Assembly (NCBI GenBank): GCA_902632545.1
Contig: CACPCX010000002.1
Coordinates: forward strand, 1 to 64,000
Source: an uncultured Pelagibacteraceae bacterium
GTDB lineage: Bacteria > Pseudomonadota > Alphaproteobacteria > Pelagibacterales > Pelagibacteraceae
DNA length: 64,000 nt
Reading direction: 5' to 3'
The notes below the pieces were generated by a model. It worked only from the letters and a program-made list of their open reading frames with translations. It had not been told where the DNA came from and did no database searches. Both the position numbers and the translations under genes were made by a program. Of this stretch, positions 41,282 to 42,540 are shown one piece after another. Every line of letters starts with the position of its first letter. The first letter of the stretch is position 1.

Positions 41282-41922
41282 CCCTGTAAATACTCTACAA
41301 TTCTAGCAAGTTCTTGTTTTTCTATTTTTCTTTTTAATTGACCTAAAGAATTTTTAAAATCTGAAATTATTCGTTGACGTTTTTTTAATGATTTATCAAC
41401 TTTTACTTTTTCTACATTTCCTTTTTGCAAAAAATCTGCCAAAGTCCAATAGATATTTATTGCCTCCTCTGGAGAAGCTTTAATGTCAATTCCAAGTGCT
41501 GCTCGCATCGTTTTTCTACTTTCATTAGTTTTAATGAGTGATGCGATTTTTTTTCCTCTAACAATTTTTTCAGGCCATTCTGCTTTAAATTTTTTTAAAC
41601 TAGATTGATTTTTTTTTAATTTATTTTGATAAAATATCTCAAAATAAGCCATTCCATAAATTTGATTGCCAGGATTTCTTTGATTATAAGAATCTGATCT
41701 TTTAAAAATTTTTCCCATTTCTGTTGCACTTTTATCTGATATACACTTCCAACTTATGCAACCAGTCATATGCATTTCTTCAAAACCTTTTGGATAATTT
41801 TTTGGTTTTTGAAATTCACCTAATTCACTAAGCTTTGTATTTATTAAATTTATTATATCTTGATTGGCAAAGGATAATGTTGGAATAAAAACAATTATAA
41901 AAATTAAAATAATTTTTTTCAC
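41278..41922 (-). CDS. Secreted protein of unknown function
   Basis: 214 aa; signal peptide MKKIILIFIIVFIPTLSFA; MHMTGCISWKCIS Cys pair; stop overlaps the start of the 856-aa gene by 4 nt. Confidence 0.75.
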   Translation of the reverse strand: MKKIILIFIIVFIPTLSFANQDIINLINTKLSELGEFQKPKNYPKGFEEMHMTGCISWKCISDKSATEMGKIFKRSDSYNQRNPGNQIYGMAYFEIFYQNKLKKNQSSLKKFKAEWPEKIVRGKKIASLIKTNESRKTMRAALGIDIKASPEEAINIYWTLADFLQKGNVEKVKVDKSLKKRQRIISDFKNSLGQLKRKIEKQELARIVEYLQG

Positions 41923-41966
41923 AATAAAAATTAAAGAAAAAAAACTTAAATTTCAAGCATTTGGAT

Positions 41967-41996
41967 CTTGAAAATAATTGATTAATACCCACATAC
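41967..41996 (+). promoter_or_regulatory. Putative RpoH promoter of hsp20
   Basis: CTTGAAA (41967-41973), 14-nt spacer, CCCACATAC (41988-41996); same layout as upstream of groES. Confidence 0.6.
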
Positions 41997-42003
41997 TATT
42001 GGT

Positions 42004-42051
42004 AAGTCGCCTAATGGGGCTTGCAAAAATAAACTTGCTTAACAAAGGAGA
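42004..42051 (+). promoter_or_regulatory. Candidate ROSE-like RNA thermometer in hsp20 5' UTR
   Basis: Hairpin 1 AAGTCGCC-UAAU-GGGGCUU (one bulge); hairpin 2 CUUGCUU-AACA-AAGGAG, where UUGCUU pairs with the Shine-Dalgarno AAGGAG around a central G.G mismatch, 5 nt before ATG. Confidence 0.5.
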
Positions 42052-42056
42052 ATATT

Positions 42057-42503
42057 ATGACAAGTAAGGATCTATCTATATTTAACTCACTTAGACCTTT
42101 TTCAATTGGTTTTGATGATATGTTCGACCAATTTGAAAATATGCTAGGTAATGGAAATTTGACAATGCAGTCAAATTACCCACCATATAACATCCGAAAG
42201 ACTGGTAAGGACAATTATGCTATCGAAGTAGCATTAGCCGGTTTTAGTAAAAAAGATGTTGAGGTTGAGTTCGAAGATAATTTATTAACTGTTAGAACTA
42301 GACAAGTTGATAAATCTGAGGACAGTGACGTTAATGGAGAAATTATTCATAAAGGTATTTCTCAAAGACAATTTGCAAGATCATTCACTATAGCTGACGA
42401 TGTAAAAGTAAATGGTGCTGAACTTAAAGACGGTCTTTTAACAATATCTTGTGAAAGAATAATTCCAGAACATAAAAAAAAGAAGCTTATAGAAATTAAA
42501 TAA
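42057..42503 (+). CDS. Small heat shock protein Hsp20 (IbpA family)
   Basis: YPPYNIRKTGKDNYAIEVALAGFSKKDVEVEFEDNLLTV; RQFARSFTIADDVKVNGAELKDGLLTI. Confidence 0.96.
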   Translation: MTSKDLSIFNSLRPFSIGFDDMFDQFENMLGNGNLTMQSNYPPYNIRKTGKDNYAIEVALAGFSKKDVEVEFEDNLLTVRTRQVDKSEDSDVNGEIIHKGISQRQFARSFTIADDVKVNGAELKDGLLTISCERIIPEHKKKKLIEIK

Positions 42504-42516
42504 GTATTAAACCTTG

Positions 42517-42540
42517 CTTGTGGGGATTTCTCCCCACAAG
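42517..42540. terminator. GC-rich hairpin between convergent hsp20 and NCS2 permease genes
   Basis: CTTGTGGGGA-TTTC-TCCCCACAAG, perfect 10-bp stem, no adjacent T-tract on either strand. Confidence 0.5.

Follow-up and report, generated by a model that had tools for sequence, protein, structure and literature searches.

Introduction

The closest described systems to the element reported here are the ROSE elements of Pseudomonas ibpA leaders, which have been probed and reporter-tested: on warming only hairpin II melts, temperature sensing resides in that hairpin alone, and regulation is lost when stabilising mutations take out the bulged G (PMC3669281). Classical multi-hairpin ROSE elements, such as Bradyrhizobium ROSE1 and that of E. 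coli ibpA, have three to four hairpins (PMC3669281), with a U(U/C)GCU motif and a bulged G in the 3' hairpin, and precede small heat-shock genes. An early list, as cited in PMC3669281, names over 40 candidate ROSE elements from alpha- and gamma-proteobacteria. ROSE-G carries a CUGCU motif and belongs to ABC transporter genes (PMC12857270). The fHbp thermosensor is reported to have anti-RBS sequences within the ORF (PMC4999090).

Here we analyse the hsp20 leader in a 64,000-nucleotide stretch of DNA, referred to as the window. The original prediction, made from the letters of the window, read this leader as a compact ROSE-like RNA thermometer.

Results

A sole small heat-shock gene with a strong Shine-Dalgarno sequence

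The host of the window belongs to SAR11 (Pelagibacteraceae), its closest protein matches being uncultured Pelagibacteraceae and Candidatus Pelagibacter ubique genomes. The leader precedes an IbpA-type small heat-shock gene (Table 1), whose product gives an E value of 1.7e-29 against the NCBIfam IbpA model, under the model's cut-off. It is the sole small heat-shock gene found in the 1.05-Mb assembly, which is estimated to be 78% complete. Of 147 genomes sampled from the order, 130 have an Hsp20 gene (PF00011), each with a single match. Separately, genome G388, flagged as 8% contaminated, contains a second, divergent hsp20 (L292, MTRDFFAEMFD...) with a like leader. Downstream of hsp20 in the window, a perfect 10-bp hairpin, CTTGTGGGGA-TTTC-TCCCCACAAG (42517-42540), lies between the converging hsp20 and permease genes and is probably a two-way terminator.

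The start codon AUG at 42057 follows a leader of 57 nt that contains the Shine-Dalgarno (SD) sequence AAGGAG. An SD-like motif (AGGA, GGAG or GAGG) precedes only 32 of 461 SAR11 ORFs, counted from first-ATG starts in the window and in a 400-kb portion (L172-L191) of a related complete genome; an SD as strong as that of hsp20 thus seems uncommon in this clade.

Upstream of the leader, CTTGAAA-N14-CCCACATA resembles the sigma-32 consensus. The pattern CTTGAA-N12-18-C[CT]A[ATC]AT precedes 95 of 119 family hsp20 leaders, with identical spacing in 94, whereas the two strands of a 400-kb portion of a related genome together contain 9 such sites. Additionally, RpoH is encoded in the genome. Judged from the promoter position, the transcript would start near 42000-42002, so that the mRNA would begin with hairpin I, as in Pseudomonas.

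Table 1. Positions of the hsp20 leader and gene features in the window; bases in the leader are numbered by their last two digits.
Feature	Position	Strand	Details	Basis
Putative sigma-32 promoter	41967..41995	+	CTTGAAA (41967-41973), 14-nt spacer, CCCACATA (41988-41995)	motif match
Hairpin I	42002..42024	+	loop UAAU, bulged G09; G02-C24, U03-G23, A04-U22, A05-U21, G06-C20, U07-G19, C08-G18, C10-G17, C11-G16	minimum-energy fold; covariation
Outer stem lengthening hairpin II	42028..42056	+	AAUA/UAUU, 42028-42031 with 42053-42056	minimum-energy fold, 5-37 °C
Hairpin II (ROSE hairpin)	42034..42050	+	anti-SD C34 U35 U36 [G37] C38 U39 U40, loop 42041-42044, SD A45-G50; C34-G50, U35-A49, U36.G48, G37 out, C38-G47, U39-A46, U40-A45	minimum-energy fold
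Shine-Dalgarno sequence	42045..42050	+	AAGGAG	read directly
hsp20	42057..42503	+	IbpA-type small heat-shock protein, 148 aa	PF00011, E 9.2e-17
Complement of the anti-SD in codons 2-4	42062..42068	+	AAGUAAG with anti-SD CUUGCUU 42034-42040 (7 pairs, one G.U)	predicted pairing

Two predicted hairpins, one of which pairs the Shine-Dalgarno sequence

The minimum-energy structure of 42000-42059 has both hairpins from 5 to 37 °C (ViennaRNA). The original prediction had placed an upstream hairpin, AAGUCGCC-UAAU-GGGGCUU, at 42004-42022; these coordinates are right, and the stem extends beyond them to 42002-42024, with G42009 bulged. It had also located UUGCUU (42035-42040) and AAGGAG (42045-42050) correctly, and UUGCUU is predicted to pair with the SD, but in a different register. 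Specifically, the proposed G.G register, with U36-A49 and U35.G50, is replaced by one in which G37 is bulged and C34-G50 forms a clamp: neither C34 nor its G partner varies among 74 aligned leaders, UCGCU variants can pair only in the bulged-G register, and this register is both that of Rfam ROSE_3 itself and that of the predicted fold. The outer AAUA/UAUU stem of hairpin II, present here, is absent from some relatives' leaders.

In the 74 aligned leaders, 98.8% of cells are standard pairs, 9 of the 15 pairs change on both sides, and the covariation score reaches 0.329, compared with 0.170 ± 0.008 for shuffled and at most 0.088 for slid controls. In hairpin I, 8 of the 9 pairs have undergone compensatory change, and none of 500 shuffles reaches its score; typical versions are GUAAGUCGCC..GGGGCUUAC, GUCGGUUGCC..GGGGCUGAC, GUUGAUUGCC..GGGAUCAAC and AGUGUUGCC..GGGACACU. 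Because this alignment was fitted to the structure, we added an anchor-defined count, in which the pairs are counted outward from the conserved loop anchor with no structure fitting. By this count 425 of 456 cells of hairpin I are paired, against a mean of 363 and a maximum of 388 in 5000 shuffles. The shuffles ignore relatedness, yet a given position shows many kinds of pair among the leaders. The single bulged G of hairpin I (42009 and its counterparts in relatives) sits in a Y[G]CC/GGG context, like that of the ROSE anti-SD motif.

Hairpin II is nearly invariant, four of its six pairs never varying among the 74 leaders, so covariation says little about it. Pairing holds in 99.3% of its cells; the base at position 36 varies between U and C, and either pairs with G48. 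Such near-invariance would be expected if both strands are constrained, the SD by the ribosome and the anti-SD by the SD. The anchor-defined and model-fitted counts were used because RNAalifold, run on MAFFT alignments, put hairpin II in the wrong place in CCUUGCUAAC variants. The two-hairpin leader with its pairing to the SD is confirmed as real and well above chance.

Conservation of the leader within and beyond Pelagibacteraceae

The original prediction had staked itself on conservation of the UUGCU/AGGA pairing in related hsp20 leaders, and U[UC]GCU together with an SD is kept in all 146 family leaders, comprising 119 from Pelagibacteraceae and 27 from further family sampling that added new genera. 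By comparison, among the 461 ORFs described above, including the 32 with an SD-like motif, U[UC]GCU-N3-8-AGGA occurs at hsp20 only. A covariance model built from SAR11 hsp20 leaders (R1) matches 77 of 118 Pelagibacteraceae genomes at E<1e-6 and finds a single strong site in the assembly, at the hsp20 leader (E 1.1e-20; next best E 0.42). Its matches elsewhere in the assembly (L154-L158), as well as L167, L168, L170 and L171, were rejected as chance, having wrong or missing genes and no motif.

UCGCU and an SD also occur in the sister family of the order, although its Hsp20 is only about 42-45% identical, and UAAUCGCUUAAGGAGGAUUA lies there with the SD in a bulged-G hairpin; two further upstream hairpins are predicted there, giving three in total, compared with two in Pelagibacteraceae. 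In other families of the class, R1 matches at E<0.001 precede hsp20 in L161, L162, L163, L164 and L166, and the weaker match L169 (E 0.0044) also precedes hsp20, the identity of Hsp20 in all six being read from translated N-terminal parts.

One further R1 match at E<0.001, in another alphaproteobacterial family (L165, 1501-1565, minus strand), marks a two-hairpin ROSE-like leader in front of rpoH (sigma-32), with UUGCUUAAUGAAAGGAUGU carrying a bulged G and a hairpin I of UGAGC[G]CUU..AAGGCUCA. This leader would place the heat-shock sigma factor under a ROSE thermometer. The RpoH gene of the window's genome has no such ROSE-like leader.

Relation to known ROSE elements

The best match in Rfam is ROSE_3 (RF02523), the type with two hairpins known from Pseudomonas ibpA. 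It matches 42001-42062 end to end (model positions 1-69) with 22.2 bits and an E value of 0.015 for 301 nt, below the gathering score of 43 bits, which the relatives (23-28.6 bits) do not reach either. The original prediction had pointed to the Rfam models ROSE (RF00435) and ROSE_2 (RF01832), neither of which matches at E<=10 over 41900-42200. Over 142 genomes of the class, ROSE_3 gave one sub-threshold match, not before hsp20, and is therefore useless for finding relatives.

The features that define the class are nonetheless present as far as they can be tested. In particular, U(U/C)GCU pairs with the SD in the 3'-proximal hairpin (42035-42039 with 42046-42050), G42037 is bulged within the U[UC]GCU found in all leaders, the element stands in the 5' UTR of a small heat-shock gene (PF00011 and NCBIfam matches), and at least one more 5' hairpin, hairpin I, is structurally conserved. 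Since these features are found but the gathering score is not reached, the leader is described here as ROSE-like in anatomy and probable function and not as a member of Rfam ROSE_3. It shares with ROSE_3 a GC-rich hairpin I, whose Y[G]CC-loop-GGG core with one bulged G is common to SAR11, several leaders of other families and the ROSE_3 consensus, and a hairpin II composed of the U[UC]GCU anti-SD, a bulged G and the SD, with the AUG just after; the AT-rich linker and the loops are shorter in SAR11.

The Pseudomonas ibpA elements (PMC3669281) resemble the SAR11 leader in having two hairpins, a similar length, a sigma-32 promoter, a small heat-shock gene and a G-C clamp below the anti-SD/SD core, and the earlier view that the SAR11 element is unusually small does not hold beside these published leaders of about the same length. 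In SAR11, however, U-A replaces the upper G-C clamp of hairpin II, so that this hairpin is probably weaker than its Pseudomonas counterpart, fitting a cold-water organism, and in the MTSKD type of SAR11 hsp20 codons 2-4 are complementary to the anti-SD. With the classical multi-hairpin elements the leader shares the U(U/C)GCU motif, the bulged G of the 3' hairpin and the kind of gene, but it has two hairpins. A possible G opposite G in the SD stem recalls ROSE-G, whereas the motif (UUGCU/UCGCU) and the gene (hsp20) differ. As in fHbp, coding sequence may join in thermoregulation; in SAR11 it would pair with the anti-SD, unlike the anti-RBS sequences of that ORF.

Predicted temperature response and the invariant codons 2-4

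For 42000-42059, the unpaired probability of the SD is predicted to rise gradually from 0.09 at 5 °C to 0.31 at 37 °C (ViennaRNA), and hairpin I is predicted to stay formed up to 42 °C. We put at roughly 85% the probability that the hsp20 leader is a ROSE-like two-hairpin thermometer that opens the SD on warming. At cool growth temperature, the anti-SD CUUGCUU would pair with the SD AAGGAG around the bulged G and hide the ribosome-binding site. Warming would melt the weak hairpin II and spare hairpin I, the stable, covarying 5' hairpin, whereupon the ribosome could bind and Hsp20 would be made. Transcription probably starts from the sigma-32 promoter, in which case heat would act twice, through more mRNA and through more translation per mRNA. 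From the fold and the known systems, we infer that melting falls within the physiological range and that the gene is repressed when cold.

Conservation extends into the gene. In MTSKD-type hsp20, codons 2-4 (42060-42068) read ACA AGU AAG with no exception in 33 non-redundant genes, or in 41 when new genera are included, and they are the only invariant ones among 120 (33 genes) or 112 (41 genes) conserved degenerate codons; AGT and AAG are minority codons. Codon 4 is AGA in L279 (MTSRD), a leader that the strict MTSKD filter excludes; the g212 genus encodes MTGKD, its GGU still able to pair by G.U. This conservation is a real and unexplained observation. Codon 6, CTA, is also over-conserved (79-88%), which anti-SD pairing does not explain.

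The strongest rival to simple melting, possible although we hold it to be clearly the less probable course, gives the anti-SD CUUGCUU two mutually exclusive partners, the SD in the cold and AAGUAAG of codons 2-4 in the warm, with a hand-over that leaves the SD and the AUG in a loop. Besides the invariance of codons 2-4, alone among degenerate codons in MTSKD-type hsp20 although two of them are minority codons, it draws on folding: in one example of averages taken across 86-100 sequences folded with 24-60 nt of coding sequence, warming lowers the predicted SD pairing from 0.51 to 0.37 and raises that of codon 3 from 0.16 to 0.29, and synonymous codons cut the predicted heat gain in SD exposure. 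However, the energies vary strongly with the length of coding sequence folded. When coding sequence is included, some folds join the anti-SD to codons 2-4 and not to the SD; this is strongest for the sequence of the window itself, where codon pairing predominates at all temperatures. Constrained folding likewise puts codon pairing first at every temperature, but no weight is given to it here as it contradicts unconstrained folding. Invariant minority codons at positions 2-4 are not seen in groES, atpE, the other hsp20 type or the sister family. Against the switch, it is absent from the other hsp20 type and from outside the family. Furthermore, covariation is impossible with both partners invariant, and in the close set (94% identical), where the test has little power, the start codons of a permease gene are invariant as well. 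We therefore offer only tentatively the idea that in most Pelagibacteraceae the ROSE element reaches into the gene, with codons 2-4 fixed to capture the anti-SD when hairpin II opens. If true, the element would be a two-state thermo-switch and not a melting zipper, tuned to life at low temperature.

Less likely still, the leader might serve mainly as a binding site through which Hsp20 represses its own translation until aggregates titrate it away, possibly in addition to a thermometer. E. coli IbpA binds its own 5' UTR, with R93 and Y34 essential for mRNA binding (PMC10474464). These residues align with R104 and Y41 of SAR11 Hsp20, and the IbpA R97 equivalent is present as R108 (E. coli residue numbering checked against PMC10474464); the strongly conserved structure of hairpin I, with its constant bulged G, would also suit a protein-binding site. 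Against this, the residue at the position of K98, where substitution by alanine removes self-repression in E. coli, is S (S109) in nearly all SAR11 proteins, and in E. coli self-repression coexists with a ROSE thermometer and is hence no alternative to one.

The reading that hairpin I merely protects the mRNA 5' end, a stabilising role of the kind suggested for Pseudomonas (PMC3669281), and that UUGCUU pairs with AAGGAG only as a side effect of the SD being strong is very improbable and, as far as sequence conservation speaks, is already contradicted, since an SD alone leaves the invariant U[UC]GCU of 146 leaders unexplained, the motif recurs in other families of the class, and none of the other SD-bearing ORFs examined has it.

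Discussion

The full-length ROSE_3 match, the motif and SD kept in 146/146 leaders, and the covariation of hairpin I support the thermometer reading of the original prediction. By analogy with Pseudomonas, the leader most likely works as a zipper-type thermometer, transcribed from a heat-shock promoter. Two-hairpin ROSE elements of such size are already published; the finding on codons 2-4 is new here. In the searchable literature, which leaves the older list of ROSE candidates uncovered and priority hence not certain, we found no report of an RNA thermometer in SAR11 or Pelagibacter, and a 2009 search for structured RNAs in P. ubique makes no mention of thermometers, hsp20 or heat shock.

SAR11 bacteria, which possess few regulators, rank with the most numerous cells in the sea. 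A thermometer on what is apparently their only small heat-shock gene would connect chaperone synthesis to sea temperature directly, with no protein in between. Because the Rfam models miss the SAR11 leader, ROSE elements are probably under-counted in AT-rich Alphaproteobacteria. Finally, the fixed codons 2-4 raise the specific idea that coding sequence may form part of a ROSE switch.
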